16,908 nucleotides of DNA from an uncultured Paracoccaceae bacterium (GTDB lineage Bacteria > Pseudomonadota > Alphaproteobacteria > Rhodobacterales > Rhodobacteraceae). The notes below the pieces were generated by a model. The model saw nothing but the letters and a program-made list of their open reading frames with translations. It did not search any database and had not been told where the DNA came from. The stretch spans positions 1-16,908 of the forward strand of contig CAJXHQ010000015.1 in assembly GCA_913054485.1 (NCBI GenBank), in the 5' to 3' direction. This document shows, in pieces, positions 1,870-16,908 of the stretch (positions are counted from its first letter, which is position 1; each line of letters begins with the position of its first letter). A program made the position numbers and the translations under genes.

Positions 1870-1942
1870 ACCTTGAGGCTGGTGCGGAAATGAGAAATGG
1901 ATGCGCCAGCAAAACAAAGGGTTTCGGAATTTTCCGCATAAG

Positions 1943-1959: not shown

Positions 1960-1963
1960 AAAA

Positions 1964-1992
1964 TTGCCAAATCTCTGACGCCGGGCAAAGAT
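1964..1992 (+). promoter_or_regulatory. Candidate bhcABCD promoter
   Basis: TTGCCA (1964-1969, 5/6 match to -35) is followed after 17 bp by AAAGAT (1987-1992, 3/6 match to -10). This would start transcription about 20 nt before the bhcA Shine-Dalgarno sequence. The poor -10 is consistent with a promoter needing an activator, but that is inference. Confidence 0.4.
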
Positions 1993-2021
1993 AAGGGACC
2001 AAGACAACAGGAGCTGGTGAC

Positions 2022-3188: not shown

Positions 3189-3201
3189 GAAGGGTCAAGC
3201 C

Positions 3202-4155
3202 ATGAGTTTTCCGACGTTCGACGATGTGGTGGAGGCGCACGAACGGATTGCGCCTTACATCCATAAGACCCCGGTTCTGACATCCTCGTTCATTAACGAA
3301 CTGACCGGGGCCGAGCTGTTCTTTAAGTGCGAGAACTTTCAGAAAGCCGGCGCCTTCAAGGTGCGCGGCGCGTCGAACGCGGTCTTTGGCCTGAGCGAGG
3401 AAATGGCCGCCAAAGGCGTCGCCACGCACTCCTCCGGCAACCACGCGCTGAGCCTGTCTTATGCGGCCGGCCGGCGCGGCATTCCCTGCCATGTGGTCAT
3501 GCCCCGCACCGCACCGCAGGCCAAGAAGGACGCGGTGAAGGGCTATGGCGGCATCATCACCGAATGTGAGCCTTCGACCACCAGCCGTGAAGAGACCTTT
3601 GCCAAGGTGGAGGCCGAAACCGGCGCGGAATTTGTGCACCCCTATAATGACCTGCGGGTCATCACCGGCCAGGCCACCTGCTCGCGCGAGCTGGTGGGCC
3701 AGGTCGAAGGCCTGGACGCGGTCGTGGCCCCGATTGGCGGCGGCGGCATGGTGTCGGGCACCTGCCTGACGCTGAGCAACATCGCACCGGATGTGAAAAT
3801 CTACGCCGCTGAGCCGGAACAGGCCGATGATGCCTACCGCAGCTTCAAGGCTGGACACATCATCGCCGATGACGCCCCGGTCACCGTTGCCGACGGCCTG
3901 AAAGTCCCGCTGAAGGACAACACCTGGCACTACGTTTCCAACCACGTGACCGACATCCTGACGGCCAGCGAAGACGAGATCGTCGAGGCGATGAAGCTGA
4001 TCTGGAAGCGCATGAAGATCGTGATGGAACCCTCGTCCGCGGTGCCGCTGGCGACCATTCTGAAGAACCCCGATGTTTTCAAAGGTAAGCGCGTAGGCGT
4101 GATTATTACCGGCGGCAATGTCGACTTGGACAATCTGCCCTGGATGCAGGGCTAA
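3202..4155 (+). CDS. bhcB: Beta-hydroxyaspartate dehydratase
   Basis: BhcB removes water from (2R,3S)-beta-hydroxyaspartate to give iminosuccinate, which BhcD reduces. The 317-residue protein is a fold-type II PLP enzyme of the threonine dehydratase/serine racemase family. K53 in GAFKVRGA is the expected Schiff-base lysine, SSGNHA (77-82) binds the cofactor or substrate carboxylate, and the GGGG loop at about 179-182 holds the PLP phosphate. There is no C-terminal ACT regulatory domain, which fits a catabolic dehydratase. I chose ATG 3202 over an upstream in-frame ATG at 3133 because it starts the conserved MSFPTFDDVV and has AAGGG at 3190-3194; the longer form would overlap bhcA. A generic tool would call it threonine dehydratase; context argues against that. 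Confidence 0.92.
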   Translation: MSFPTFDDVVEAHERIAPYIHKTPVLTSSFINELTGAELFFKCENFQKAGAFKVRGASNAVFGLSEEMAAKGVATHSSGNHALSLSYAAGRRGIPCHVVMPRTAPQAKKDAVKGYGGIITECEPSTTSREETFAKVEAETGAEFVHPYNDLRVITGQATCSRELVGQVEGLDAVVAPIGGGGMVSGTCLTLSNIAPDVKIYAAEPEQADDAYRSFKAGHIIADDAPVTVADGLKVPLKDNTWHYVSNHVTDILTASEDEIVEAMKLIWKRMKIVMEPSSAVPLATILKNPDVFKGKRVGVIITGGNVDLDNLPWMQG

Positions 4156-4167
4156 GGAGTTAGAGCC

Positions 4168-5334
4168 ATGAACAAATCTGTGAATTTCGACGACTTCGAA
4201 GTGGGTTATGACATCCCGGCGGTTCCGGGCATGGATGCTGCTGACATCCAGACCCCGGCGTTGGTGCTGGATCTCGATGCGCTGGAGCGCAACATCGTGA
4301 AGATGGGCGATTACGCCAAGGCCCACGGCATGCGCCACCGGGTGCACGGCAAAATGCACAAGTCGGTTGATGTGGCGCTGCTGCAGGAAAAACTGGGCGG
4401 CGCGATTGGCGTCTGCTGCCAGAAAGTGTCGGAGGCCGAGGTCTTTGTGCGCGGCGGCATCAAGGATGTGCTGGTGTCCAACCAGGTGCGTGAAGCGGCC
4501 AAGATCGACCGTCTGGCGCGCCTGCCCAAGCGCGGCTCGCGCATCATTGTCTGTGTGGACGATCTGGCCAATGTCGCCGACCTGTCGGCAGCGGCCCAGA
4601 AGCACGGCACCCAGCTGGAATGCTTCATCGAGATTGACTGCGGCGCGGGCCGCTGCGGTGTGAACTCCACTGGCGCGGTGGTGGAAATTGCCAAGGCGAT
4701 TGAAGCGGCAGAAAATCTCAAGTTCACTGGCATTCAGGCCTATCAGGGCGCGATGCAGCACATGGACTCCTACGAGGACCGCAAAGCGAAGCTGGACGTG
4801 GCCATCGCCATGGTGAAGGACGCGGTTGAGGGCCTGAAGGGTGAAGGCATTGAGTGCGAGCTGGTCTCCGGCGGCGGCACCGGCTCCTACTACTTCGAGT
4901 CCAATTCGGGCGTTTATAACGAGCTGCAGTGCGGCTCTTATGCCTTCATGGATGCCGATTATGGCCGCATCCTCGACAAGGACGGCAAGCGCATCGACCA
5001 GGGCGAATGGGAGAACGCGCTGTTCCTCCTGACTTCGGTCATGAGCCACACCAAGGCCGACAAAGCCATCGTGGATGCCGGCCTGAAAGCCCAGTCCGTG
5101 GACAGCGGGTTGCCGACTGTCTTTGGCCGCGACGACGCAGTTGAATACCTCAAATGCTCGGACGAGCATGGCGTGGTCGGTGACCCCGAGGGCGTGCTGA
5201 AAGTGAACGACAAGCTGCACCTGGTGCCTGGCCACTGCGATCCGACCTGCAACGTGCACGACTGGTACGTCGGCGTGCGCGGCGGCAAGGTTGAAACCGT
5301 CTGGCCTGTCTCGGCGCGCGGAAAAGCATACTAA
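4168..5334 (+). CDS. bhcC: Beta-hydroxyaspartate aldolase
   Basis: BhcC condenses glycine with a second glyoxylate to form beta-hydroxyaspartate, the carbon-carbon bond-forming step of the cycle. The 388-residue protein belongs to the D-threonine aldolase/DSD1-like fold-type III PLP family. It has an alanine-racemase-like barrel, with TPALVLDLDALERNI near the start, and a C-terminal beta domain. K62 in HRVHGKMHKS corresponds to the PLP lysine of D-threonine aldolases. VPGHCDPTCN near the C-terminus is the expected divalent-metal site. The start has AAGGAG (4154-4159) in front, overlapping the bhcB stop, so the two genes are likely translationally coupled. The specific role is assigned from operon context and family. 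Confidence 0.92.
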   Translation: MNKSVNFDDFEVGYDIPAVPGMDAADIQTPALVLDLDALERNIVKMGDYAKAHGMRHRVHGKMHKSVDVALLQEKLGGAIGVCCQKVSEAEVFVRGGIKDVLVSNQVREAAKIDRLARLPKRGSRIIVCVDDLANVADLSAAAQKHGTQLECFIEIDCGAGRCGVNSTGAVVEIAKAIEAAENLKFTGIQAYQGAMQHMDSYEDRKAKLDVAIAMVKDAVEGLKGEGIECELVSGGGTGSYYFESNSGVYNELQCGSYAFMDADYGRILDKDGKRIDQGEWENALFLLTSVMSHTKADKAIVDAGLKAQSVDSGLPTVFGRDDAVEYLKCSDEHGVVGDPEGVLKVNDKLHLVPGHCDPTCNVHDWYVGVRGGKVETVWPVSARGKAY

Positions 5335-5357
5335 GGCCACCACTCACATTGGCCCGT

Positions 5358-5394
5358 GGCTGCGCGCCTGCAAAATCAGGTGCCGCGCGCAGCC
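5358..5394 (+). promoter_or_regulatory. Hairpin in the bhcC-bhcD spacer
   Basis: GGCTGCGCGC (5358-5367) pairs perfectly with GCGCGCAGCC (5385-5394). The 17-nt interior can pair a little further. It lies between the bhcC stop and the bhcD Shine-Dalgarno sequence (AAGGAA, 5413-5418). A short AT-rich stretch follows but no clean U-tract. It could be an RNA-processing or stability element, or a leaky attenuator lowering bhcD relative to bhcABC. Confidence 0.5.
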
Positions 5395-5425
5395 CGTCAT
5401 TTAATTAGATACAAGGAACACGGAC

Positions 5426-6403
5426 ATGAGCGACGGTCTGCTGATTGTTTCCGAAGAGGTCTGCGAGAAAGTCGTGGACCGCGCCAGCGCATTTACGGCG
5501 GTGGAGAACGTCTTTGCCGCCATGGCGCGCGGCGATGCTTATAACTTCCCGGTGATCCGCGAGGCGATCGGCTATGCCGATGCGCTCTACGGCTTCAAAT
5601 CCGGTTTCGACAAGGCGGGCAAAGCGCTGGGCGTGAAGTCCGGCGGCTACTGGCCGGGCAATATGGACAAGGGGCTGACCAACCACCAGTCCACCGTCTT
5701 CCTGTTCAACCCCGACACCGGGCAGTTGCAGGCACTGGTGGGCGGCAACTACCTGACGGCTGTGCGCACCGCTGCGTCCTCGTCTGTGTCGATTGCGCAT
5801 CTGGCGCGCAAGGATTCCAAGGTTTTGGGCATGGTCGGGGCCGGTCACCAATCGCAGTTCCAGCTGCGCGCCGCCGCCGAACAGCGCGATTTTGAGAAGG
5901 TCGTCGCCTGGAACCCGCACCCCGAGATGCTGCCGCGCCTCGGCGCTGTCGCCGAAGAACTGGGCCTCCCATTCGAGGCGGTGGAGCGCGAACAGCTGGG
6001 GGCAGAGGCAGATGTGATCATCACAATCACCTCCGCCTTCGAGCCGCTGCTGAAAAAGGAATGGATCAAGCCGGGTACGCATATTGCCTGCATGGGTACC
6101 GACACCAAGGGCAAGCAGGAGGTTGCAGCCGAACTGGTTGCCTCGGCCACGGTGTTCACTGACGAGGTGGCGCAATCTATTACCATTGGTGAAGCCCAGC
6201 ATGCTGTCGGATCCGGCGCGCTGGCCGAGGCGGCAATCATTCCGATCGGGGCGGTGATCAACGGCGATCACGCCGGCCGGAGCTCGGCAGAGGAAATCAC
6301 CCTGTTTGACGGCACCGGTGTAGGCCTGCAGGATCTGGCCGTGGCAGCCGTTGCGGCGCGGCTTGCGGAAGAACAGGGGCTGGCTGGCACTGCCACGCTC
6401 TGA
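5426..6403 (+). CDS. bhcD: Iminosuccinate reductase
   Basis: BhcD reduces iminosuccinate with NAD(P)H to L-aspartate. This regenerates the amino donor for BhcA and closes the beta-hydroxyaspartate cycle. The 325-residue protein belongs to the ornithine cyclodeaminase/mu-crystallin family. K71 in LGVKSGGYWPGN is the usual substrate-contacting lysine. NYLTAVRTAASS (residues 108-119) is the family segment before the Rossmann domain, whose nucleotide-binding turn is LGMVGAGHQSQ (134-144). The C-terminal part returns to the substrate domain with GVGLQDLAVA. AAGGAA at 5413-5418 supports the start. It is the last gene of the cluster, separated from bhcC by a 91-bp spacer with a hairpin and followed by a strong stem-loop. 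Alone it would be annotated ornithine cyclodeaminase. Confidence 0.92.
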   Translation: MSDGLLIVSEEVCEKVVDRASAFTAVENVFAAMARGDAYNFPVIREAIGYADALYGFKSGFDKAGKALGVKSGGYWPGNMDKGLTNHQSTVFLFNPDTGQLQALVGGNYLTAVRTAASSSVSIAHLARKDSKVLGMVGAGHQSQFQLRAAAEQRDFEKVVAWNPHPEMLPRLGAVAEELGLPFEAVEREQLGAEADVIITITSAFEPLLKKEWIKPGTHIACMGTDTKGKQEVAAELVASATVFTDEVAQSITIGEAQHAVGSGALAEAAIIPIGAVINGDHAGRSSAEEITLFDGTGVGLQDLAVAAVAARLAEEQGLAGTATL

Positions 6404-6424
6404 CACGGCGGCCCTGAAACAGCT

Positions 6425-6451
6425 CCGCCGCCGGATGGGATCCGGCGGCGG
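6425..6451. terminator. Strong stem-loop between converging bhcD and OmpA-family gene
   Basis: CCGCCGCCGGA and TCCGGCGGCGG form a perfect 11-bp stem with the 5-nt loop TGGGA, 22 nt after bhcD and about 20 nt from the end of the minus-strand gene. Only a short TATT follows on the plus strand. It is placed to act in both directions. Confidence 0.7.
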
Positions 6452-6472
6452 TATTGGCATTTGACGATTTGT

Positions 6473-7012
6473 TTAAAGCCCGGGCTGAATTGATCCCTGC
6501 AAAAACGGGCAGGTGCGGGCTTGGATTTCAACCCGCCGGTTCACGGCGGCTGCCCCGGGCTGGCCATCCAATGGCCGGGCTTCACCCTCGCTGAAAACCG
6601 CCTCAATCCGGTTTGCGCCGCTGAGCTGCCCGCGCAAGAATTCCGCTACCGTATCTGCGCGGCGCTGGGCCAGCCGCAGGTTCGCGCCTTCATCCCCGAC
6701 GGTGTCGGAATGACCGACCAGCTGCAGGCAGGCCCTGTCCATCGGCGGGGTCTGCAAGACGGCTGCCAGCACCTCCAGCTGAGCCTTGGCTGCAGGGTTC
6801 AGCCTGCTGCCGCCTTGTGTGAAAAATATATGACTTTCAATGGCTTCTGCGGGAATGGCGCGCAATCTCGCGTCGATTGGCTGCGCGCCTGCACAGGCGG
6901 GAGAAGCCACGCCGTATTTTTGCTGAAGGGTTGTGCAAAGCTCATCCGCCTGGCTGGCCTGCACTGCAGGAGCCGCGAGGCAGAAGAGGAGGAAAAGGAC
7001 ATACCGCGCCAT
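6473..7012 (-). CDS. Exported OmpA-domain protein
   Basis: I place the start at ATG 7012, giving 179 residues with a clear signal peptide (MARYVLFLLFCLAAPAVQA, cut before SQADE). A longer frame from 7084 adds 24 residues without signal character. The C-terminal OmpA-like domain (about 58-166) contains LVGHSDTVG, the NLRLAQRRADTV helix and VNRRVEIQA. D103 and the arginines at 117-118 are placed to grip diaminopimelate in peptidoglycan. There is no beta-barrel, so it is a periplasmic wall-binding protein. Four cysteines (26, 40, 95, 168) suggest disulfides. The same cysteine plan is found in the OmpA-like protein at 15300-15893, so the two look like paralogues flanking the polysaccharide operon. 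The role is unknown; an envelope anchor for the polymer machinery is a guess. Shine-Dalgarno is weak. Confidence 0.8.
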   Translation of the reverse strand: MARYVLFLLFCLAAPAVQASQADELCTTLQQKYGVASPACAGAQPIDARLRAIPAEAIESHIFFTQGGSRLNPAAKAQLEVLAAVLQTPPMDRACLQLVGHSDTVGDEGANLRLAQRRADTVAEFLRGQLSGANRIEAVFSEGEARPLDGQPGAAAVNRRVEIQARTCPFLQGSIQPGL

Positions 7013-7084
7013 ACTTTTATTCCGGTTTGAACTGCGAATGGCTGCTATTGTTATTTCGCAGGCGCTAATATCCGGTAAATGCAA

Positions 7085-7112
7085 TTTGGAGCATATTTTC
7101 CTCCGATTTAAT
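7085..7112 (+). promoter_or_regulatory. Possible promoter of the polysaccharide operon
   Basis: The spacer between the divergent OmpA-family and acyltransferase genes (7013-7175) is clearly more AT-rich than its surroundings. TTTAAT (7107-7112) matches the -10 consensus at 5 of 6 positions and has a weak TTTGGA (7085-7090) 16 bp upstream. Assigned by eye; the region could hold promoters for both directions. Confidence 0.25.
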
Positions 7113-7175
7113 TCATCAAATATTCAGGTCCGTCCGTCATCCGTAATTGCGTTACGAGTTTTTGTGAGTCTGTAA

Positions 7176-8306
7176 ATGGTGAACCCTGGTACCCGGCTGA
7201 TCTGGCTGGACGCCCTGCGCCTTTGCGCCGGCCTTTCGATGGTAGGGCTGCACGCCTCTGCCGATCCGGCGGGCCAGCCCTGGGCAGCCTACGTGGAGGT
7301 TGAGCGCATCGCGCCGATGCTGCTGCGTGCGGTCCTATATGTGGCCCGGACCGAGCTGTTCCTGATCATTTCTGTCTTTTTGCTGATCCTGGCGCTGGAG
7401 AAGCGCCCGCGCAGCTACGGCCAGGTGATCTGTCAGCAATCGCGCCGCCTGCTGGTTCCCTTTACCTTCTGGACGCTGTTTTATGCTTTTTACAGCCTGA
7501 ACAAGGCCCATGCCTTCGGATATGCCGAAAGCGCTTGGGCGGCGCTGGCTTCGCCGCGCGAATGGCCGGGGTTCCTGCTGCTCGGCAGCATAAAGTACCA
7601 CATGCATTTTATCCCGACGCTCTTCGGGATGCTCCTGCTCCTGCCGCTATATCGCACCGCCGCCCGGTTCCCGGTGCTGGGTCTGGGGCTGCTGCCTCTC
7701 CTTCTGATACGGCGCGAGCTGGACGGCGTCCTGTATGCGGAGCTTTGGGGGGCAGATATCCTTCCCTATCTCGCCCGCACAGTGAAGATCCTGACCTATG
7801 CGGGCTACGGTATGGCGGCGGCGGCCTTTTATACGGTCTGGACGCGCATGGGCCGCCGCGACCTGGCGCAATGGGCCGGGCCAGTGCTGCTGGCAGGCGG
7901 GCTGATGTTTGCAATGAAACTGGCCGCGGCTTGGAAAACCGTGGAGGCCGGCCAGTGGCCTTTCTCCTTCGCGCCGGGCTACTGGGCCGACTATCTGATG
8001 CCGGTGCTGCTTTTTGCGCTTTGCATGTGCCTGGGCCGCCGGCAATGGCCGCCGCTTCTGTCGCAGCTGGCGCCGTTTTCCTTCGGCATCTACCTTTGCC
8101 ATCCGATCTTTCTAGACCTCGGGGAAATCTGGTTGCGCGGTACAGACTGGGCTCCCATCTGGCAGATTCTGGCCAAGATCGCCTTTGCCCTTCCGGCCAC
8201 GGTGTTGCTGGTCTGGCTGATCTCCAGAACTCATGTGCTGGCCTGGACCATCGGGTTAGGGGATCTGCCGCGCCTGCGCCGGCGGCGGCCCTCGCAATCC
8301 GTTTGA
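7176..8306 (+). CDS. Acyltransferase family 3 (OafA-like) integral membrane protein
   Basis: This 376-residue protein has about ten hydrophobic helices and the marks of membrane O-acyltransferases. These are LIWLDALRLCAGLSMVGLHA in the first helix with the family histidine at 26, the cytoplasmic arginine pair followed by Pro in QSRRLLVPFTFW (88-99), and FSFGIYLCHPIFL in a late helix. Such enzymes move acetyl or similar groups from cytoplasmic acyl-CoA to a sugar at the outer face. As first gene of the run ending at 13743, it likely decorates the polymer made by the glycosyltransferase. The start has only a weak GTGAG at 7164-7168, and a GTG directly follows the ATG, so initiation may be inefficient. 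Donor and acceptor are not predictable from sequence. Confidence 0.85.
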   Translation: MVNPGTRLIWLDALRLCAGLSMVGLHASADPAGQPWAAYVEVERIAPMLLRAVLYVARTELFLIISVFLLILALEKRPRSYGQVICQQSRRLLVPFTFWTLFYAFYSLNKAHAFGYAESAWAALASPREWPGFLLLGSIKYHMHFIPTLFGMLLLLPLYRTAARFPVLGLGLLPLLLIRRELDGVLYAELWGADILPYLARTVKILTYAGYGMAAAAFYTVWTRMGRRDLAQWAGPVLLAGGLMFAMKLAAAWKTVEAGQWPFSFAPGYWADYLMPVLLFALCMCLGRRQWPPLLSQLAPFSFGIYLCHPIFLDLGEIWLRGTDWAPIWQILAKIAFALPATVLLVWLISRTHVLAWTIGLGDLPRLRRRRPSQSV

Positions 8307-8353
8307 TGACGACCTGTAAGACAACGTTTGAGTATCGAGTGAAGAGGTGAAAC

Positions 8354-8638
8354 ATGCTGCTGCGTGTCGATTACGTCAATGAAACCGCCATTTTACGCCT
8401 GGGTGCGTCGCGTCTGGGCGCCAATTTCTCCCGGCCCTTGCAGCGCTGTTTCTCGGGGCTCAGGTCCGAAGGCTGTGTAGCAGCCCTGGTTGACCTGTCG
8501 GGTGTAAAGGTGCTGACGGCCGCTGGTCTCGCCGCGCTCTACGAAGCTTACGGGACCTATTGCGAAGTGATGCAGATCGGCTTTTTCGGGGCTTCGGCCA
8601 AGGTGTTGAAGGTGATCGAGCGGCACGGGCTCGCCGGG
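8354..8638 (+). CDS. STAS domain, probable N-terminal part of a STAS-nucleotidyltransferase (frame breaks at about 8638)
   Basis: From ATG 8354, with GAGGTG in front, 95 codons encode a STAS (anti-sigma-factor-antagonist type) domain: LLRVDYVNETAILRLGA, then AALVDLSGVKVLTAAGLAAL and IERHGLAG. The last helix of the fold, VLPQFADIGRAMAE, lies in the next frame (reading GTG at 8638-8640) and leads without a stop into the nucleotidyltransferase. The nominal frame stays open to 9064, but after 8638 it encodes only Arg/Ser/Cys-rich shadow sequence. One extra G in the run at 8636-8638 would give a single fused protein. The usual phospho-acceptor motif D-S-S-G is T-A-A-G here, so the domain cannot be switched by SpoIIAB-type serine kinases. 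Its partner is unknown. Confidence 0.75.
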
Positions 8639-8670
8639 TGCTGCCGCAGTTTGCCGACATCGGGCGGGCC

Positions 8671-9840
8671 ATGGCGGAACCGCAGTTCCGCCGCCGCCAG
8701 CTGGCAGGGACAAAGGCGGTTGTGCTCTGCGCCGGAGAAGGCCGACGGATGCGCCCGCTCAGCACCGCAACACCGAAGCCGATGCTGGACCTGCTCGGCG
8801 TGCCGGTGGTGGAACGGCTGCTGGATCACCTCGGCAGTTTCGGGGTGCGGGATTTTTACCTCAACCCCGGCTATCTCGGTGATCAGCTGCACCGTCACTT
8901 CCGCAGCCGCGCCGCCCGCAGCATCTTCTTTGCCAATGAGGGCGGTTACGCGGAGGGCCGCTGGGACGGGGCCCCGATCGGGTCCGCCAGCACGCTGGCG
9001 CGGCTGCAGCGCCGGCACTCAGCATTTGACGGCGACTTCTTCGTGCTCTGCGGCGATGCGCTGATCGATCTGGATATGGCCGGCCTGATGCGTGCGCATA
9101 AGGACAGCGGTGCCGAGGTCACCATCTCGGCGGCCAAGGTGCCGCGTCAGGATATTCCGAAATACGGCATCCTGGATGTAAACCCGCAAGGCCGGGTGAT
9201 TTCTTTCCAGGAAAAACCCGCGGTGGAGGAGGCCCGGTCCTGCCTCGCCAGCACCGGTATCTACGTGTTCAGCCCGGCGGCTCTGCACCGGCTGCAGGAT
9301 GAGGAGGGTCTGGATATCGCCATCGACCTGCTGCCGCGCATCCTGGCGCGCGGCGGCCGCATCCAGGCGCACAGCCCGGAGTTCATCTGGGCCGACATCG
9401 GCAACCCGGCTGATTACTTTGCGGCTCTCCAACGGGGGCTCAGCGGCACTTTGCCCGGGGTAATGCCGGCCGGAGAAGAGGCCGCGCCGGGCGTCTGGCT
9501 GGCGCCGGGGGCAGAAGTTTCGCCGCGCGCGCGCATCTTGGGGCCCTGTTATGCCGGGCCGGGCGCGCGCATCCTTGCGGGGGCCGAGCTGCAGGGAAGC
9601 TGCGTGATCGGAGCGGACTGTGTGGTCGAGGGCAAGACACTGCTGCGTGACAGCATGCTGATGCCCGGCACGCAAGTATCCAGCGGGGTGTGGCTTGAAG
9701 CGCAGATCGCAGCTCCCGATTGGTCGCTCAGCTATGGTCAGCCGGTCTTCGGCGTGCCGAAGGCACCGCCAGTTACCGGCCTTGTCCCGGCGTCTGCCGC
9801 GGCAACGGGCAGCTGGGGCCGGATCTTTCAGGCGGGGTAG
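8671..9840 (+). CDS. Sugar-1-phosphate nucleotidyltransferase with left-handed beta-helix tail
   Basis: The protein carries the nucleotidyltransferase signature KAVVLCAGEGRRMRPLSTAT followed by PKPML, the metal-binding LCGDALIDLD, and PKYGILDVN with ISFQEKP. The C-terminus has hexapeptide-like turns (LAPGAEVSPRARILGPCYAG and following). This is the layout of mannose-1-phosphate guanylyltransferase/GCD1-type and glucose-1-phosphate uridylyltransferase relatives, so it should make an NDP-sugar for the downstream glycosyltransferase. Whether this is UDP-glucose or GDP-mannose cannot be told by eye. ATG 8671 is the best independent start (389 residues) but has only a poor GGGCGGG in front. Upstream in the same frame the sequence completes the STAS fold, so the native form was probably a fusion starting at 8354. 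An ATG at 8560 lies inside STAS coding in another frame. The next gene starts 4 nt after the stop. Confidence 0.85.
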   Translation: MAEPQFRRRQLAGTKAVVLCAGEGRRMRPLSTATPKPMLDLLGVPVVERLLDHLGSFGVRDFYLNPGYLGDQLHRHFRSRAARSIFFANEGGYAEGRWDGAPIGSASTLARLQRRHSAFDGDFFVLCGDALIDLDMAGLMRAHKDSGAEVTISAAKVPRQDIPKYGILDVNPQGRVISFQEKPAVEEARSCLASTGIYVFSPAALHRLQDEEGLDIAIDLLPRILARGGRIQAHSPEFIWADIGNPADYFAALQRGLSGTLPGVMPAGEEAAPGVWLAPGAEVSPRARILGPCYAGPGARILAGAELQGSCVIGADCVVEGKTLLRDSMLMPGTQVSSGVWLEAQIAAPDWSLSYGQPVFGVPKAPPVTGLVPASAAATGSWGRIFQAG

Positions 9841-9844
9841 GGCG

Positions 9845-10603
9845 ATGCGTGTTGCAGTTCTCGGATGTCTGGCCGGAGCATTCCTCGCCGCCAGCCCGGT
9901 ATCGGCGCAGGAGGAGAACCGGTTCTGGATTCTATGGGAGCGGGTGGAGCGGGCCGGCACCGGCTGCCCGGACAACCCGCTGTGCCTGACCCGGCGCAAC
10001 TACACCAGCCGCCTGTTCGAAAACGCGGATCTGGAGACCATGTACCGGCTGTTCGGGATGATGGACGGCTCGGCCCTGGCCAAGGGGCGGCTGGCCGAAC
10101 ATCCCGACGCACCGCGCATCTGCCAGCACAATGATGCCGAAGTGCTTTTGGGCTTTGATCCCGAACGCCTGCCCAAGGTGGAAAAGATCGAGGTGCTGCG
10201 CGGGCTTGCGGGCATCAGCTTCAACCTGCGCAGCCTGAAACCGCCTCCGGGCCATTCCAGCGACTTCGGCCGCAAGCTGCATTTGCGGTTTGAGCAGAAG
10301 ATCAAAGCCGCGGGCATCCCGGTCATCCCGGAGCATCAGCTGAGCGCTACGCCGGGCCAACCGGTGCTGAACATCTTCTTTTCACACAACGATTTTAACG
10401 GCGACTGCGAGTATGAATACTCTGTCTTTGCCAGCCTCAGCCAGACGGTGCTTCTGTCGCGCGACCTGCGCATCAAAGTGAGCGCGGGCGTCTGGTCGTT
10501 CTCCACCGGCTCGAAATCTGATGGCCACCGCGGCAATGAGGCGGATGCGATCCTCAGTGTGGCGGACCGGTTCATCGAAGACTTCCGCCTCGTGAACCCC
10601 TGA
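9845..10603 (+). CDS. Exported protein of unknown function in polysaccharide operon
   Basis: I do not recognise this family. From ATG 9845 it encodes 252 residues with a signal peptide (MRVAVLGCLAGAFLAASPVSA, cut before QEENR). The mature protein begins with FWILWERVERAGTGCPDNPLC, a possible disulfide loop. The second half (about residues 120-252) has alternating hydrophobic patterns such as LHLRFEQKIKAAGIPVI, PVLNIFFSHNDFN and ADRFIEDFRLVN. These suggest a small alpha/beta periplasmic domain, somewhat like LptE- or DUF4136-type folds, but the resemblance is weak. It lies 4 nt after the nucleotidyltransferase and 10 nt before the glycosyltransferase, so it is surely co-translated with them. 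A periplasmic helper of polymer export is the simplest guess. The longer frame from 9695 lies inside the previous gene. Confidence 0.75.
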   Translation: MRVAVLGCLAGAFLAASPVSAQEENRFWILWERVERAGTGCPDNPLCLTRRNYTSRLFENADLETMYRLFGMMDGSALAKGRLAEHPDAPRICQHNDAEVLLGFDPERLPKVEKIEVLRGLAGISFNLRSLKPPPGHSSDFGRKLHLRFEQKIKAAGIPVIPEHQLSATPGQPVLNIFFSHNDFNGDCEYEYSVFASLSQTVLLSRDLRIKVSAGVWSFSTGSKSDGHRGNEADAILSVADRFIEDFRLVNP

Positions 10604-10613
10604 GAACGGCCCT

Positions 10614-12452
10614 TTGAAGAAAGCTGATCTGACCATGGCGCAGCCCTATTTCACCCGTTTTGAGCACCGCCGCCCGCCCGGTTTTCCGCCGCTGGGCCGC
10701 CGCCGGGCAGCGCTTTGGCATTTCCTCGCCGGGGTCACAATTGCGCTGGGCGCATGGTATCTGCACTGGCGCTGGACCGGGTCACTCAACCCCGATGCCC
10801 CGGTGTTTTCCGCCGTCATCGCCGCGGCCGAGACCCTGTGCTTCATCGGCACGCTGATTTTCTTCCATGACATCTGGGACGAAGGGGACACGCCGCCAAC
10901 GGCCCCGCCTGCCACCCGGGCAGAGGCGGGGCTGGACCCGGGCGGCGGGCGGGAGGAAATCCTGACCGACATTTTCATCACCACTTTTGATGAGGACATT
11001 AGCACTGTTGCGCCTTCGGTACGCGATGCGCAGGCGGTGCGGGCGCCCAAAGGGGTGCGTAAGGCGGTCTATATTCTGGATGATGGCAACAGGCCTGAAT
11101 TTGCGGCGCTCGCCCGGCAGCTGGGTGCGGGCTATCTGTCCCGGACGACCAATGAGGGCTTCAAGGCCGGCAATCTGCGCAACGCGCTCTTTGCCACCAA
11201 TGGTGATTTCGTGGTGATCTGCGATGCGGACACCCGGCTGTTTCCGGCCTTCCTGGAGAATACCCTGGGCTATTTCCGCGACCCGAAGGTGGCCTGGGTT
11301 CAGACCCCTCATTGGTTCTACGACATTCCCGGGGGTGTGCCCTGGCAGGACTGGCTGCCCCGCCGCCTTGGCGGCCGTGCCGCCGCGTGGGCGGGCGGCC
11401 CATTGGCATGGCTGACAGGCCGGCAGCGTGTCGGGGCGGATCCGTTTCTTTCGGACCCGGCGCTGTTCTTCGACGTGATCCAGCGCCGCCGCAACCGCCA
11501 CGGGGCCTCCTTTTGCTGCGGGGCGGGCTCCGTTCACCGGCGCGAAGCGGTTTTTGGCGCGGCGCTGAAGCGCAAGTCCGCCGCAGTATATGCGCAGTGC
11601 AAGCGGCTGGGCAGCAGCCGGCCTGCGCCATTGATGAAACTGGTAGAGCTGGAGCCGTACAAGTTCCATGTCTCTGAAGACATCTATACGTCGATCCTGT
11701 TGCAATCGGATGCGCAGGAGGGCTGGATCTCGGTCTATCATCCGCAGGTCGAAAGCCGCATGCTGTCCCCCTGGGGCATGCACGCCTGGGCGGCGCAGAA
11801 GCTGAAATATGCGGGCGGCACCTTTGACATCATGCTCAACGACAACCCGCTGCGCCGCAAGGGGCTGCCGTCTGCGGCCAAGCTGCACTACCTTGCAACC
11901 TTCTGGTCCTATCTTACAGTTTTCTGGACGTCGGTTCTGCTGATGGCGCCGGTCTTTTCTCTGTTGACCGGCCTGGCGCCGGTGGAGGCCTATTCGCGCG
12001 AATTTTTCGCCCGCTTCCTGCCGGTTATCCTGGCCAATGAGCTGGCCGTGATGGCAGGCTGCAAGGGACATGCGGTGCAGCCTGGGCGCATTCTCAGCGT
12101 GGCAACCCTGCATATCCAGCTGCGGGCCTTCTGGCTGGTGCTGCGCGGCCGCCGCCCGTCCTTTCCGCCCACGCCCAAGACGCCGCTGCTGAACGGAGGC
12201 ATGCGCTACGCCGGGGCCAGCCTGGCGATGCTGGCGGTCATGGCGGCTGCGGCAGTGTGGGGCGGGGTGCAGTCCTGGCTGGGCACGCCCGGCTACGGGC
12301 TGCCCTTCCTGACAGTCAATCTGTTCTGGCTCGGCTGGAACATGTTCGCCGTGGGCCGTGTGGTGCGCGCGGCCCTCTGGCGTCCGCCGTTGGATGCCAC
12401 ACCCGGAACCCAGACCAAGGAGGCCGCCGATGCAGCCCTTGCAAAAGCCTGA
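10614..12452 (+). CDS. Processive family 2 glycosyltransferase, cellulose-synthase-like
   Basis: The 612-residue inner-membrane protein should polymerise an NDP-sugar into a beta-linked glycan and thread it through the membrane. Two N-terminal helices (about 34-52 and 66-84) precede a GT-A catalytic domain with DDG (156-158), DAD (204-206), SED (354-356, in place of TED) and QKLKY (395-399, in place of Q(Q/R)xRW). Hydrophobic helices follow at about 428-455, 470-480, 533-552 and 562-582. There is no PilZ domain, so direct c-di-GMP activation as in BcsA is not expected. The TTG at 10614 is the first start; ATG 10635 (605 residues) is equally plausible because neither has a strong Shine-Dalgarno sequence. 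The product could be cellulose, curdlan-like or mixed-linkage glucan; the GH16 gene nearby favours a beta-1,3-containing glucan. It overlaps the next gene by 23 nt. Confidence 0.88.
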   Translation: MKKADLTMAQPYFTRFEHRRPPGFPPLGRRRAALWHFLAGVTIALGAWYLHWRWTGSLNPDAPVFSAVIAAAETLCFIGTLIFFHDIWDEGDTPPTAPPATRAEAGLDPGGGREEILTDIFITTFDEDISTVAPSVRDAQAVRAPKGVRKAVYILDDGNRPEFAALARQLGAGYLSRTTNEGFKAGNLRNALFATNGDFVVICDADTRLFPAFLENTLGYFRDPKVAWVQTPHWFYDIPGGVPWQDWLPRRLGGRAAAWAGGPLAWLTGRQRVGADPFLSDPALFFDVIQRRRNRHGASFCCGAGSVHRREAVFGAALKRKSAAVYAQCKRLGSSRPAPLMKLVELEPYKFHVSEDIYTSILLQSDAQEGWISVYHPQVESRMLSPWGMHAWAAQKLKYAGGTFDIMLNDNPLRRKGLPSAAKLHYLATFWSYLTVFWTSVLLMAPVFSLLTGLAPVEAYSREFFARFLPVILANELAVMAGCKGHAVQPGRILSVATLHIQLRAFWLVLRGRRPSFPPTPKTPLLNGGMRYAGASLAMLAVMAAAAVWGGVQSWLGTPGYGLPFLTVNLFWLGWNMFAVGRVVRAALWRPPLDATPGTQTKEAADAALAKA

Positions 12453-13743
12453 CCGCAACAACCGCTCCAGCGTGATCTTCCTGGCTGGTCTTTTTGCTGC
12501 CGCCGCCGCGGCGGTATCGCTTGACGGGGCCGGGGCGTTCCTGTCGTCGGCTTCGCGTGCGCAGGTGGATTATGAAACCGCATTGCAGCCTGCCGCACCT
12601 GCCGCACTCAGCGCGGCGGATTGGCACGCGGCCCGCGTTGCCTGGCGCTACTTCGAACAGAATTACCAGCCCGCCTCGGGCCTGGTGGATTCCGTGGCCG
12701 GTTTCCCCTCGGGCACGCTATGGGATCAGGGATCATACCTGCACGCGCTCAATGCCGCGGCCGGTATCGGGCTGATACCGGATGAGGTCTTTGGGGCCCG
12801 CGTCGAGGCTCTGCTGGGCGGTCTGTCACGGCTGGAGCTTTTCGAGGGCATGCTGCCCAATAAGGTCTATCATTCTCAGACGCTGAAGATGGTGGACTAT
12901 CAGAACAATGAAACGCCCGAAGGCGTTGGCTGGTCGGCATTGGACATTGCCCGGATGCTGCTTGCGCTGCGGGTGCTGGAGTACCGCCACCCGCGTTACG
13001 GCGCCAAGGTGCGCGAGGTGATCTCGGGCTGGCAGCTGGTGGCCATGGCCGACCGCGGCGAGCTGTTCGGCGCGGCCCGCGAAGGCGGAGAGACGGAATA
13101 TCTGCAGGAAGGCCGGATCGGCTATGAGCAATACGGCGCCCGGGCCGCCGTCCTCTGGGGGCTGGACGCGCTGGATGCGGCTTCGGCGAGCCGGATCCTG
13201 CGCTGGGAAAACGTCTCTGGCGTGGACATTGCGGCTGACCGGCGCACCAGCAGCGCTTTCCAAGCCGTCACCCCGGCCCTGAGCGAGCCCTATTTCCTGC
13301 ACGGGCTGGAAATGGGTCTCAGCGGTGAGACCCGTGTGCTTGCAGGGAGGATCTACGAGGCCCAGGAGAACCGTTACCGCCGGGAAGGCCAGCTTACCAT
13401 GGTGAGCGAGGATAATATCGATCAGGCACCCTATTTCCTTTACTCTTCGGTCTTCGCCAACGGCACCGATTGGGCAGTGGTGAACGAGGACGGCAAGCAG
13501 TTTCCCGAATTGCGCACCGTCAGCCTGAAGGCGGCCTATGCCTGGGATGCGCTGTACCGGACAGAGTACACCCAGACCGTTCGCAACGCGCTGGCTGGTC
13601 TGGAGACTGCAGGCGGCTGGGCGGCCGGGCAGTATGAGGCAACCGGCGAGGTGAACTCTGCACTCACGCTAAACACCAACGCGGTGGTGCTGGAGGCGGT
13701 GCATTACATGGCAAACGGGCCGCTTTGGTCTTACCGGGGCTGA
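12430..13743 (+). CDS. Membrane-anchored DUF3131 protein (alpha/alpha-barrel glucoamylase-like)
   Basis: ATG 12430 has a strong AAGGAGG at 12418-12424 and lies inside the end of the glycosyltransferase gene. The 437-residue product has one N-terminal helix (about 13-31), an uncleaved anchor or signal peptide, and then an exported domain. AWRYFEQNYQ, GLVDSVAGFPSGTLWDQGSY and LNAAAGIGLI are typical of DUF3131. Repeated helical pairs such as VGWSALDIARMLLALRVLEY and LTLNTNAVVLEAVHYMANG suggest an (alpha/alpha)6 barrel. Fixed pairing with the synthase suggests the role that the glucanase BcsZ plays in cellulose operons: trimming or guiding the nascent chain in the periplasm. Catalytic residues are not established. 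It is the last gene of the plus-strand operon. Confidence 0.82.
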   Translation: MQPLQKPDRNNRSSVIFLAGLFAAAAAAVSLDGAGAFLSSASRAQVDYETALQPAAPAALSAADWHAARVAWRYFEQNYQPASGLVDSVAGFPSGTLWDQGSYLHALNAAAGIGLIPDEVFGARVEALLGGLSRLELFEGMLPNKVYHSQTLKMVDYQNNETPEGVGWSALDIARMLLALRVLEYRHPRYGAKVREVISGWQLVAMADRGELFGAAREGGETEYLQEGRIGYEQYGARAAVLWGLDALDAASASRILRWENVSGVDIAADRRTSSAFQAVTPALSEPYFLHGLEMGLSGETRVLAGRIYEAQENRYRREGQLTMVSEDNIDQAPYFLYSSVFANGTDWAVVNEDGKQFPELRTVSLKAAYAWDALYRTEYTQTVRNALAGLETAGGWAAGQYEATGEVNSALTLNTNAVVLEAVHYMANGPLWSYRG

Positions 13744-13744
13744 G

Positions 13745-13775
13745 ACCGCAAGAAAAGTGGCAGGCGATTCCTGCC
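13745..13775 (-). terminator. Intrinsic terminator between converging operons
   Basis: On the minus strand, GGCAGG-AATCG-CCTGCC forms a 6-bp stem with a 5-nt loop (13775-13759), followed by ACTTTTCTT. It fits a Rho-independent terminator for the CsgG-like gene's transcript, about 85 bp after its stop. Read the other way it could also slow transcripts from the DUF3131 side. The rest of the 116-bp gap is GC-rich and holds no gene. Confidence 0.5.
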
Positions 13776-13859
13776 GGCGGGGACATAAACCCGGCCGCCC
13801 CGGGGCAGCCTGTTCTCGATGAGTGCGGCCGCTTCAGCCCAGCTGTTCCTGGATGAGGT

Positions 13860-14585
13860 CTAAAGGTTCTGATAGTTGTCATCACAGGTGCCCAGCTGCT
13901 TGCAGGTCGGCATCGGCGATCCAGAGGGCTGCGGCTCGCGGGCCGGTGCCGCAGCAGGCGCAGGTGCCGGAAACGCGGGAGCAGATGAAGCCGGAGCGGA
14001 GGTGGCCGCAGCCGGAGCAGCGGCGGCTGGTGCCGCTGCCGGGGCCGATTGCATCAGTGCGGGGCCGGACGGGATACCGCCAGTCTGCTCTTTCAGGCGG
14101 CGGATCAAATCATAATCGACGGTGCCGGAAGGCAGTATGTTCTGCTCCGCCTGAAAGGTGCTGATGGCGCGCCGGGTTGCCGCATCCAGTTCGCCGGTTG
14201 GTGTGCCGGACAGCCGGCCGAGCGCGATCAGCATCACCTGCGCCTGATGAGTGGCCTGTTTGGGATTGCTGCGGACAAGTGCCCGTTCAGCCTTCTCTTC
14301 GGTCTTTGCATCGGTGGCCGGGTGCTCAAGGCAGGTCCAATAAGGGACTCCGGCATGCCTGCCCAGTAGCTCGATCACCCCCAGTTCCACCAGATTGCGG
14401 ACCGCCTGGCTTTCGCTCTCCACACGTTCGATCGTCAGCGGGATGGTCAGCGCGGCGTTGTCAATAATGCCGATTGCCGTTCCCTTGATGCCGCGCTGCA
14501 CCACCACCATGGAATTGGCGACCGATGCACCGGGCAAAACCCGGCGGCTGGGGTATTGCACCAGATGCAAATCGAGGGAGATCAC
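13860..14585 (-). CDS. Downstream fragment: end of CsgG-like domain plus peptidoglycan-binding domain
   Basis: This open frame starts at GTG 14585, whose GTGA overlaps the TGA of the upstream fragment, and encodes 241 residues. Residues 1-85 (SLDLHLVQYPSRRVLPGAS, then ESQAVRNLVELGVIELLG) are the second half of a CsgG/HfaB-like domain, not a natural protein start. Residues about 113-166 match the peptidoglycan-binding-1 pattern: QAQVMLIALGRLSGTPTGEL, DAATRRAISTFQAEQNILPS, then GTVDYDLI. An Ala/Pro-rich linker covers about 180-217, and the end contains CKQLGTCDDNYQNL. If translated alone by stop-start coupling it would have no signal peptide and stay in the cytoplasm, which makes little sense for a wall-binding domain. 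I therefore favour a broken or recoded single gene. Confidence 0.6.
   Translation of the reverse strand: MISLDLHLVQYPSRRVLPGASVANSMVVVQRGIKGTAIGIIDNAALTIPLTIERVESESQAVRNLVELGVIELLGRHAGVPYWTCLEHPATDAKTEEKAERALVRSNPKQATHQAQVMLIALGRLSGTPTGELDAATRRAISTFQAEQNILPSGTVDYDLIRRLKEQTGGIPSGPALMQSAPAAAPAAAAPAAATSAPASSAPAFPAPAPAAAPAREPQPSGSPMPTCKQLGTCDDNYQNL
13935..14048 (-). repeat. Ala/Pro-rich low-complexity linker coding region
   Basis: About 38 codons encode almost only Ala, Pro and Ser (APAAAPAAAAPAAATSAPAS and onward), seen as imperfect GCAGCCGGxGC-type repeats. Such linkers often span the periplasm between a wall-binding domain and a membrane-anchored part. It is a place where slippage could occur. 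Confidence 0.7.
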
Positions 14586-15043
14586 TGACAGTTTGCGGTA
14601 GCCCCGGAAAAACCGCCGGTGATGGCATTGCTGGATTTGCTTTCACGGCCGTAGTTGGCTGAAACTTCATTCTCCGCCGCATTCGCGTCGCGCTGGCTGA
14701 TGGAGCCGCGGATATAAAGCTGCGGGTGGATCTCCTTCTTCTTGCGGGTGGTTACGATCTCCAACTGGCCGAAGCCTGAAATCCTGGCCTGATCGAGGAA
14801 CACGTAGCGGCCGTTCGTGCGGTTCATTTGGTTGATCGCATTGATCAGCATGTCATCCGCCCCAACGTCGATGTCCTTGGTCCGGTCGGGAATATCAGAG
14901 GAGGAGATCAGATAGCTGCGCTTTGGAAGCCGGCCCATCATCTGGTCCATGCAGCGCAACGGTTCGCTGAAGGAGGTGAAGGCGCGCGCAGGCCTGGTGT
15001 TCGGCTGCGCTATGCTTGGCGTTGCGGGCGGATAGCGGCCCGC
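14582..15043 (-). CDS. Upstream fragment of the CsgG-like lipoprotein (after the in-frame TGA)
   Basis: The frame is open from just after the TGA at 15046-15044 to the TGA at 14584-14582. Its first in-frame ATG is at 14959 (MRCMDQMMGR), but conserved-looking sequence (ARAFTSFSEPLRC) begins before that ATG, so it is unlikely to be the true start. Residues such as VGADDMLINAINQMNRTNGR, YVFLDQARISGFGQ and HPQLYIRGSISQRDANAA follow the CsgG/HfaB order: cofactor-free alpha/beta domain, then a 'llrGsI' strand. The fragment ends in FSGATANCQ, and the next strand is in the other frame. On its own it has no signal sequence and only half a domain. Confidence 0.5.
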   Translation of the reverse strand, partial: AGRYPPATPSIAQPNTRPARAFTSFSEPLRCMDQMMGRLPKRSYLISSSDIPDRTKDIDVGADDMLINAINQMNRTNGRYVFLDQARISGFGQLEIVTTRKKKEIHPQLYIRGSISQRDANAAENEVSANYGRESKSSNAITGGFSGATANCQ

Positions 15044-15112
15044 TCAGGCAGTAAGGGTTGCGAGGGCGCAGATCAGCGCGCTGGCAGAGACAGTTCTGGT
15101 CAAGGATTTCAC

Positions 15113-15299
15113 GGGCAAACACCTGCAGTAAACAGGTGCTCAATTTGCCACCCTCAACTTTCCTCCCGTTTAAGCGGAGCGTAATCCGAGCGTGAATAAC
15201 CTGTTGAATTTCAAGTAAAGAAGAGCTGATTTCCTAACCCGGGATTTACCGGGTTCTGTCATGCTGCAGCCCGTTGTTTATGAGTAACGGGGTCCTGGC
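15113..15299. promoter_or_regulatory. Divergent intergenic region with two inverted repeats
   Basis: This 187-bp gap lies between the CsgG-like gene (minus) and the OmpA-like gene (plus). It holds TTGAA-T-TTCAA (15204-15214) and a hairpin AACCCGG-GATTTA-CCGGGTT (15236-15255) inside the likely 5' leader of the OmpA-like gene. I could not assign convincing -35/-10 pairs. The region must contain promoters for at least one direction. Confidence 0.4.
15236..15255 (+). promoter_or_regulatory. Leader hairpin upstream of OmpA-like gene
   Basis: A perfect 7-bp stem (AACCCGG/CCGGGTT) with a 6-nt AT-rich loop ends 44 nt before the start codon. It could be an operator in DNA form or a small mRNA-stability hairpin. 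No U-tract follows, so it is not a convincing terminator. Confidence 0.35.
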
Positions 15300-15893
15300 A
15301 TGAACAGGGGTTATCTGCTGGCCGCGGGCATTGCAGCGGCCGCCATGAGCGGCTCTGCCGCGGCACAATTGAAAGAGCTTCCGGTATCGGCGGACAGCTG
15401 CGCCATCTATCATGCGCTGACCGGGAGGACGCGGGCCGGCTGTGCGCCGCCTGATGCAACGGGTCTGGGGCAGACCCGCAGTGCCGTCTCTGGCCCGGAT
15501 GCACGCAGCGCCGCGCCAATTGGCAGCGACCCGGTCAACCAAGGGTACTACGTCCGTTTCGCCTTCAACTCCGACGCGCTGACACCGGAATATCTGGCAC
15601 ATCTTGGCCGCTTGGCCGCAGTTTTGCGGTCGCCGCAGCTGGCTGGCGCCTGCGTCCGGCTGACCGGCCATACCGACAACGTCGGCAGCGCGGCCTATAA
15701 TATGTCCTTGTCCAGAAAACGCGCCAAGACCGTGGCCCGCTTCCTGACCGGCAACGGCGGTCTGGCTGCTGGCCGGGTAGAGGCGGTCGGTGCCGGCAAG
15801 ATGGCTCACTTGCCGGGATACCCCGGTACACATGCACTGCAGCGCCGGGTCGAGATCCTTGCACGTCCGGGCGGCGATGCGCCCTGCAGTTAA
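15300..15893 (+). CDS. Exported OmpA-domain protein
   Basis: The 197-residue protein has a signal peptide (MNRGYLLAAGIAAAAMSGSA, cleaved near AAAQ) and a C-terminal OmpA-like domain (about 80-190) with LTGHTDNVG, the SLSRKRAKTVARFL helix and ALQRRVEILA, which should bind peptidoglycan. Four cysteines (34, 48, 118, 196) follow the same plan as the OmpA-family protein at 6473-7012, including an identical C-x13-C at the mature N-terminus. Both share the phrase LAAVL followed by a Cys, then (L/V)xLxGHxDxVG, so they look like paralogues. It overlaps the start of the caspase-like gene by 17 nt, so the two are translationally coupled. The role is probably structural in the envelope part of the polysaccharide system. 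Confidence 0.85.
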   Translation: MNRGYLLAAGIAAAAMSGSAAAQLKELPVSADSCAIYHALTGRTRAGCAPPDATGLGQTRSAVSGPDARSAAPIGSDPVNQGYYVRFAFNSDALTPEYLAHLGRLAAVLRSPQLAGACVRLTGHTDNVGSAAYNMSLSRKRAKTVARFLTGNGGLAAGRVEAVGAGKMAHLPGYPGTHALQRRVEILARPGGDAPCS

Positions 15894-16662
15894 GTGGCTT
15901 CGCCGGGCGGCTGCCGCGGCTTTCCTCCTGTCCACGCCGGCGGGGCAGGCGCTGGCAGGCCCTTCTCATCTCGCGGTGATCATTTCTGCGGACCGGTATG
16001 AGCAGCTTCCGGACCTGCCCAATGCGGCCGCAGATGCCGCACTGGTGGCTGCGGCGCTGCGCAAAACTGGCTACCGGACTGTGGAGCTGGCACCCGGCAG
16101 CCGCAGCGGCCTGCTGCGTCAGCTGGCCCGATGGCGCATAGCAGCTTCAGATGCAAGTCAGGTGGTGGTCTATTATGCGGGTCACGGATTGCAATCCGGG
16201 GGGCGCAGTTTCCTGCTATTGCCTGGAGTGCAGCCAACGGAGGGAAGGTGGCAGCAGGAATCGCTGTCGCTGGACGTGGTCCTGCGCGCATTCTCAGACA
16301 AGCCGCGCCAGAAAATCATACTGTTTGATGCCTGCCGGACCCTTCCGGAACTGGCCTTGCTGCCGGTCCCTGCGACTGCAGGGAACCCGCTGCCGGCTGG
16401 GGTGCTTCTGGCCTATGCGTCCCAGGCCGGGGCACCTGCCTGGGACGGGGGGGGCAGTAACGGGCCCTTCGCGGCAGCCTTTGCTGCCGGCCTTCAGCGG
16501 GGACATACCGCGTTTGTCCCGCTGCTGCGGCATGTCAGGGTCAAAGTTGTGGCGAAGACCGCCGGGTTGCAGGTCCCCTGGAGCCGCAGCGCGCTTCTGC
16601 GCGCGGCCCGGTTCCCGGCTATTCCGAAAATTGCGCCAGCTGGTTCTCCGCCAGAGGGGTGA
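15877..16662 (+). CDS. Exported caspase-fold peptidase (C14 family)
   Basis: From ATG 15877 the product has 261 residues with a signal peptide (RRAAAAAFLLSTPAGQALAG, about residues 9-28). The caspase-hemoglobinase fold follows: HLAVIISADRYEQLPDLPNA, AADAALVAAALRKTGY, then VVVYYAGHG with catalytic H103, and IILFDACR with catalytic C153. Both catalytic residues are present, so it is probably an active cysteine peptidase in the periplasm or at the surface, with preference after basic or acidic residues unknown. It is short, with no extra C-terminal domains. It starts inside the OmpA-like gene and overlaps the GH16 gene end-to-end by 44 nt on the opposite strand. A longer frame from 15790 lies inside the OmpA gene and lacks the signal peptide at its N-terminus. 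Possible targets are the co-encoded envelope proteins. Confidence 0.82.
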   Translation: MRPAVKWLRRAAAAAFLLSTPAGQALAGPSHLAVIISADRYEQLPDLPNAAADAALVAAALRKTGYRTVELAPGSRSGLLRQLARWRIAASDASQVVVYYAGHGLQSGGRSFLLLPGVQPTEGRWQQESLSLDVVLRAFSDKPRQKIILFDACRTLPELALLPVPATAGNPLPAGVLLAYASQAGAPAWDGGGSNGPFAAAFAAGLQRGHTAFVPLLRHVRVKVVAKTAGLQVPWSRSALLRAARFPAIPKIAPAGSPPEG

Positions 16663-16906
16663 AAGCTGCTTCCTGCAGCAGTGCGCGTGTGTTCAGATTG
16701 TCATCTGCAGCCCCGGCCCAATCCGCCAAGGCGAGACTTGCGGCCCAGATATTGAAAAACAGCCGTCCTGGCACGCTCGGCAGGTGCCCGGCGGAGCTGA
16801 GTTCCCGGTGCAGCAGCCTGCCGTCTGCGTACCAGCGGATTTCGTTCGGATGCCAGTCAAAGGCGTAATGCCTGGGGGCATCCGCGGCATCATAGCCATG
16901 CGCGAC
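16619..16906 (-). CDS. GH16 family beta-glucanase, C-terminal part (start beyond window)
   Basis: On the minus strand, 95 codons run from the window edge to TAG at 16621-16619. HYAFDWHPNEIRWYADGRLL, followed by LPSVPGRLFFNIWAAS and ADWAG, is the C-terminal half of the GH16 beta-jelly roll (compare 'Y-F-W-P-I-Y-DG' and 'NLW...W-G' in licheninases, laminarinases and ExoK/ExsH-type enzymes). The catalytic ExDxxE segment lies outside the window. Such enzymes cut beta-1,3/1,4-glucans and control chain length of exopolysaccharides. Beside a cellulose-synthase-like gene it supports a beta-glucan product. Its end overlaps the end of the caspase-like gene by 44 nt. There is no room for a terminator between them, so antisense overlap of transcripts is likely. 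The exact substrate class within GH16 cannot be told from this part. Confidence 0.75.
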   Translation of the reverse strand, partial: VAHGYDAADAPRHYAFDWHPNEIRWYADGRLLHRELSSAGHLPSVPGRLFFNIWAASLALADWAGAADDNLNTRALLQEAAFTPLAENQLAQFSE

Positions 16907-16908
16907 CC

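Follow-up and report, generated by a model that had tools for sequence, protein, structure and literature searches.

A widespread, unnamed synthase-dependent locus with DUF3131 proteins as a predicted glucan system

Does a locus that pairs a cellulose-synthase-like enzyme with a DUF3131 protein make cellulose, or another glucan? The question is raised by contig C15 (bases 1-16908, the window) of the 692-contig draft genome of an uncultured Paracoccaceae bacterium. This genome is judged 75% complete, a figure that applies to every absence from it given below. The polysaccharide locus begins at 6473, the left half of the window holding other genes. An earlier note had seen here a single polysaccharide locus unlike a standard cellulose operon, perhaps with a CsgG-like pore in place of BcsC and DUF3131 in place of BcsZ; this picture of cellulose with substituted parts was only partly right. 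Based on sequence and fold comparisons, we favor, at a probability of roughly 0.55, a different reading: the locus is a widespread, unnamed, synthase-dependent system for a predicted glucan, its DUF3131 proteins process the chain, and it is not a cellulose operon. No publication on this locus was met in the literature searched.

We first consider the family 2 glycosyltransferase (GT2). Among its solved relatives BcsA ranks first (7.5e-31), and the alignment shows the first D, DAD and SED motifs conserved. Likeness to the Bcs operon consists of this BcsA-type core and an adjoining gene for an (alpha/alpha)6 protein. By contrast, the enzyme has no C-terminal PilZ domain (no Pfam match in GT2), scores 171 bits on the CelA model, where 699 are required, and carries QxxKY in place of QxxRW. 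This replacement was seen in 59/59 GT2 sequences and in the four plasmid relatives read; the aligned position of E. coli BcsA reads QRIRW. As the earlier note had stated, BcsB, BcsC and PilZ are missing: none was found among the window proteins scanned. The BcsB family was also not found in the own genome, with a positive E. coli control, and for BcsC the rest of the genome was not searched.

DUF3131 (PF11329) carries most of the argument. GT2 (612 residues) and the DUF3131 protein (437 residues, here DUF3131a) are encoded by separate genes. The closest solved relatives of DUF3131 are beta-1,2-glucanases and the GH189 cyclisation domain, the latter being the best match, and its (alpha/alpha)6 barrel superposes on those of GH144, GH162 and GH189. 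Four acidic positions are near-invariant. According to the accessible part of PMC12102758, conserved Glu, Phe and Tyr residues define the GH189/SGL clan. By fold, DUF3131 is nearer to GH189 than to GH8, which speaks against its being a plain BcsZ replacement, and the modeled fold points to a predicted processing enzyme of the beta-1,2-glucan type. We met DUF3131 in marine, soil and enteric bacteria, adjoining a gene often named cellulose synthase. The accessible parts of PMC12974863 and PMC8371737 name the domain without a function; in the literature searched, PF11329 was not mentioned and no link between DUF3131 and the beta-1,2-glucanase superfamily was met.

Pfam confirmed the gene families named in the earlier note, with matches among the window proteins to OmpA, acyltransferase, nucleotidyltransferase, GT2 without PilZ, DUF3131, peptidoglycan-binding, OmpA again, caspase and the end of a GH16 protein. 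Missed at that stage were two broken genes, the fusion of STAS to the nucleotidyltransferase and the changed GT2 motif. The features are as follows.

6473..7084 (-): OmpA1, an OmpA C-terminal-domain protein, divergent from the operon (PF00691, 1.6e-13)
7176..8306 (+): O-acyltransferase with multiple membrane spans (PF01757, 2.8e-26)
8354..8641 (+): STAS-nucleotidyltransferase gene, STAS part, with the frame lost at its end in this assembly (95 residues identical to the N-terminus of intact P0121; STAS match of 6e-7 in relative L017)
8638..9840 (+): remainder of that broken gene, a sugar nucleotidyltransferase with its catalytic signature intact (PF00483, 7.9e-32)
9845..10603 (+): UNK, an exported protein of unknown fold (no Pfam or NCBIfam match; in 22/41 type loci, defined below)
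10614..12452 (+): GT2, cellulose-synthase-like, no PilZ, QxxKY for QxxRW (PF13632/PF00535)
12430..13743 (+): DUF3131a, a membrane-anchored (alpha/alpha)6 protein, by fold in the beta-1,2-glucanase/GH189 superfamily
13860..14642 (-): CsgG-like lipoprotein, C-terminal part with peptidoglycan-binding domain, the frame lost before it (PF01471; aligned with 14 intact relatives)
14582..15043 (-): CsgG-like lipoprotein, N-terminal part after the lipobox (alignment with relatives; CsgG fold match in relative L004)
15044..15112 (-): CsgG-like gene, signal peptide, with a terminal TGA (15044-15046) at the relatives' lipobox Cys codon
15300..15893 (+): OmpA2, a second OmpA C-terminal-domain protein (PF00691, 2.3e-18)
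15877..16662 (+): caspase-fold peptidase, short and exported, with the motifs YYAGHG and DACR (PF00656, 2.5e-24; start read from the sequence)
16619..16906 (-): GH16 glycosidase, C-terminal piece cut by the window end (PF00722, 8.7e-8)

For UNK, the best PDB profile match reached only E = 2. The EIDxE motif is kept in 19/19 relatives of the GH16 cluster, and the acyltransferase is 37% identical to one adjoining GT2 in Pseudooceanicola p202.

To ask how far this gene set is conserved, we searched named genomes for GT2 and clustered the open frames around the resulting 58 loci. Type loci, 41 of the 58, have the acyltransferase or the nucleotidyltransferase cluster. Acyltransferase, nucleotidyltransferase, DUF3131a and an OmpA-cluster protein each occur in 39/41, and the order OmpA(-) ... 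acyltransferase(+) ... GT2(+) DUF3131a(+) is kept in 37/41 (exceptions: L007, L016, L033, L048), which bears out the idea of one conserved locus. Because flanks were fetched only to 10 kb or to the end of the contig, accessory counts are lower bounds: DUF3131b, a partner of DUF3131a, in 31, exported c6 in 28, ABC-like protein in 27, UNK in 22, GH16 and HlyD in 19 each, CsgG-like in 14, c16 in 10 and caspase in 9. The remaining 17 loci, from Microvirga and others, have a different neighborhood.

Whole genomes gave a similar association. The sample comprised 296 genomes of the family, all at least 90% complete except the window's own. Some GT2 match was found in 76; carriers, with at least 100 bits, numbered 30 (G127 and G252 partial, four in two pieces). 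PF11329 was matched in 70/296 genomes. Matches of at least 380 bits occurred in 28/30 carriers (not G252 or G258) and in 2/266 non-carriers, G142 and G268, each a fragmented assembly that has a single b-type copy. Fisher tests for association with GT2 gave p-values of 1e-34 for PF11329, 1e-17 for the ABC-like protein, 2.5e-10 for the CsgG-like protein and 5.5e-8 for the caspase. Neither GT2 nor DUF3131 was matched in the only other genome from the window's genus. The caspase (at least 133 bits) was found in seven genomes, all GT2 carriers, yet generic caspases are common (79/296 matched) and the association is weak because the threshold sits at a small gap, the next match scoring 127.6 bits. 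Members of the caspase cluster keep the Cys pattern in 10/10 cases and a narrow His pattern in only 2/10. The caspase/OmpA2 pair of the earlier note is therefore present, but as a minor accessory. PADLOC matches to caspase, OmpA and ABC genes as a defence system were weak and partial, and that identity was rejected.

Comparison with known systems places the locus near, but outside, several of them. As in cyclic glucan synthases (Cgs), a membrane GT2-like synthase is paired with a GH189-type (alpha/alpha)6 domain, the domain that DUF3131a matches best. Unlike Cgs, the locus has separate proteins, two DUF3131 types, an acyltransferase and a STAS-nucleotidyltransferase; its GT2 is BcsA-like with QxxKY, whereas Cgs has an RW motif according to the accessible part of PMC10901819; and no GH94-type match was found among the window proteins scanned. 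With Opg/Mdo systems it shares a membrane GT2, a membrane acyltransferase and a periplasmic glucan enzyme, and OpgC is named beside GT2 in Pantoea and Klebsiella. The window acyltransferase is, however, only weakly MdoC-like (NCBIfam MdoC/OpgC, 8e-4, 18.6 of 338 bits), and the OpgG/MdoG family was not found in the own genome, with a positive E. coli control. Block 3b of Klebsiella pneumoniae, in the accessible part of PMC12974863, contains a cellulose-synthase-like GT2, three DUF3131 genes and OpgC. This block and Pantoea agglomerans p33.1_1 resemble the locus in combining such a GT2 with DUF3131 genes. They differ, as far as the accessible sources go, in a separate sensor kinase and anti-sigma/STAS regulators; in the window group STAS is fused to the nucleotidyltransferase, and OmpA, CsgG-like and caspase proteins are added.

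On the favored reading, GT2 would polymerise glucose from UDP-glucose and push the chain through the inner membrane, with the nucleotidyltransferase, where its signature is kept, supplying the donor. The acyltransferase would decorate the chain. DUF3131a and its partner DUF3131b may act on the growing chain in the periplasm by cutting, transferring or closing it; the locus would then function like a cyclic or periplasmic glucan synthase whose parts are separate proteins. Anchoring of the assembly to the wall and the outer membrane would fall to the OmpA proteins and to the CsgG-like lipoprotein with its peptidoglycan-binding domain, and the polymer would end up in the periplasm or at the surface.

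Two genes of the window are broken. STAS and nucleotidyltransferase share one open frame in 18/18 relatives having both parts; in the window a frameshift splits them. A protein database holds an intact 495-residue version (two contigs of at most 7,925 bases), 98% identical to the nucleotidyltransferase part and with STAS identical over 95 residues, so this break is local to the assembly or strain. The CsgG-like and peptidoglycan-binding parts share one open frame in 14/14 relatives. Here the window gene has a frameshift and, in addition, the TGA at 15044-15046, exactly at the codon for the lipobox cysteine present in all 14; the nearest intact relative is 77% identical, and only the window's own piece is near-identical.

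The best PDB match of the nucleotidyltransferase relative L017 is UTP-glucose-1-phosphate uridylyltransferase (1.8e-52). The pyrophosphorylase signature is kept in 23/40 cluster members, the window included (one member, L048, lacks STAS), and lost alone in five, two of them by about one position. In the other 12 (L007, L010, L011, L016, L023, L024, L030, L033, L035, L037, L038, L047), both the signature and the GD motif are lost and the gene is still in place. Loss in so many members while GT2 motifs stay intact points to a predicted role that outlives catalysis. The members read from Pantoea, Paracoccus and Pseudooceanicola encode STAS as a stand-alone protein, with a phosphatase and an ATP-binding protein as neighbors. 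In the alignment a DS[ST] motif, which we take to be the phosphorylated site, is present in 5/5 stand-alone rows and 0/12 fused rows. Precedent for a STAS protein controlling a polysaccharide locus is Vibrio fischeri SypA, as far as the accessible part of the source goes.

Is the CsgG-like lipoprotein an export pore? In relative L004 its best fold match is CsgG, with PelC lower in the same list. The CsgG Pfam model had no match in L004 or L013, where only PG_binding models appeared at E 0.01, and a PDB profile search likewise yielded nothing beyond the peptidoglycan-binding domain. Weak HfaB matches (NCBIfam) were seen in 3/4 relatives. We uphold the CsgG-like assignment on the fold match and the HfaB matches despite the failed sequence searches. 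A Cys stands at the lipobox position in 14/14 relatives. From the CsgG, HfaB and PelC lipoprotein rings the protein differs in its C-terminal peptidoglycan-binding domain. Its profile matched 292/296 genomes, nearly all through that common domain; at least 290 bits was reached in 11, the next score being 46 bits. Ten of the 11 are GT2 carriers and the last, G268, carries DUF3131b, in line with the claim that the lipoprotein belongs with the system. Yet none was found in 20/30 carriers, among the best first-look candidates scored, which makes a CsgG-like pore doubtful as a general rule. We consider it improbable that the locus exports a cellulose-like exopolysaccharide through a CsgG-like ring replacing BcsC, with DUF3131 acting as its BcsZ. 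Might these instead be unrelated neighbors, GT2 making a glucan while CsgG-like protein, OmpA2 and caspase form a separate protein secretion unit resembling curli or holdfast anchors? The named relatives of the lipoprotein, CsgG and HfaB, would fit, as would the placement of the CsgG-like gene and GT2 on different contigs in G002, G203, G239 and the fragmented G127. We nonetheless find this unlikely: even when non-adjacent, the family was found only in genomes with the GT2/DUF3131 system (11/11 in the sample), which argues for shared function.

A more frequent accessory than the CsgG-like protein is the ABC-like protein, found in 19/296 genomes: 17/30 GT2 carriers plus G142 and G268, both with DUF3131b. 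It belongs to module 2 (ABC-like protein, HlyD, DUF3131b, exported c6). In the own genome, contig C111 (L072, 3-8217) has HlyD, the ABC-like protein and DUF3131b adjoining a Rep3 plasmid initiator and ParA, so this second half of the system appears plasmid-borne. That contig, the 19-genome distribution and the presence of the ABC-like protein in fetched flanks of 27 type loci could also suit a type I-like route, in which the HlyD/ABC pair takes the polymer across the outer membrane and the CsgG-like lipoprotein is only an anchor. We give this little credence, since 13/30 carriers showed no ABC-like protein (four first-look candidates scored per genome) and its ABC signature and Walker B motif look unusual by eye. 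GT2 itself is carried by 17 plasmid records, 16 of which also have a DUF3131 match (the exception is from Sphingobium); hosts include Pantoea, Salmonella, Chimaeribacter, Vibrio, Paracoccus and other Rhodobacterales. In Pantoea p33.1_1, one strand encodes SpoIIE, STAS, an ATP-binding protein and OpgC, and the opposite strand holds GT2 together with three DUF3131 genes.

As side observations, c6 (e.g. L003:15146-16561) and c16 (e.g. L020:4768-5469) are unknown families that often adjoin DUF3131b, apparently share a cysteine-containing stretch by eye, and had no Pfam matches in the members scanned. Directly beside the polysaccharide locus, 1001-6403 encodes an IclR regulator, a class-V aminotransferase and pyridoxal phosphate-dependent, D-serine-dehydratase-like and ornithine-cyclodeaminase-like enzymes, presumably a set resembling the beta-hydroxyaspartate (bhc) cluster.

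Several points weigh against a glucan system processed by DUF3131. In the Foldseek list BcsZ also matches DUF3131 (7.6e-5), behind the beta-1,2-glucanase superfamily, which leaves GH8 some probability by fold. The hhalign alignment is confident only for the N-terminal part of DUF3131, with doubtful C-terminal columns; E327 aligns with the GH189 nucleophile at middling confidence, and the acid/base residue failed to align. A shared fold is no proof of linkage, as the known substrates of (alpha/alpha)6 enzymes include many glycans. A third type of DUF3131, scoring about 147-256 bits and mostly encoded in open frames of about 820-1160 residues, also occurs in genomes without this GT2, such as G051, G260 and G114. 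Carrier G258 lacks DUF3131, and G112 has a 301-bit DUF3131 match in pieces without GT2. The Fisher p-values ignore relatedness of the genomes; only the best few first-look candidates were scored per genome, so absences are not certain, and thresholds were chosen after the gaps were seen. The acyltransferase could not be identified as OpgC, BLASTP against Pantoea OpgC being not significant, and is named plainly. Finally, some neighbors of GT2 better fit exported 1,3- or 1,4-linked polymers: GH16 (window and 19/41 type loci), GH10 with a TPR/PgaA-type barrel in Microvirga, and BcsS with GH16 in Sphingobium. The Microvirga relatives (L039-L046, L049-L051, L057) have a divergent TPR protein (the one scanned resembles the PgaA barrel), and most also have GH10, SpoIIE, STAS and HATPase genes; no DUF3131 match was found in their flanks. 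The GT2 family may therefore serve more than one export design.

A bolder version of the glucan reading is tentative, and we hold it well short of even odds. DUF3131 would be an unrecognised beta-1,2-glucanase/cyclase branch, and the locus would represent a new glucan synthase class: a QxxKY GT2 and two membrane-anchored DUF3131 transglycosylases, separately encoded, would together make an acylated glucan and close or trim it. In Rhodobacteraceae, the UDP-glucose-forming enzyme would have captured a STAS regulator; its active site would since have been lost in several lineages, and it would now serve as a regulatory subunit of the synthase. If DUF3131 is indeed a relative of beta-1,2-glucanases and cyclases, many 'cellulose synthase' annotations would be wrong, and the locus would represent a new glucan pathway, directly testable by one enzyme assay.

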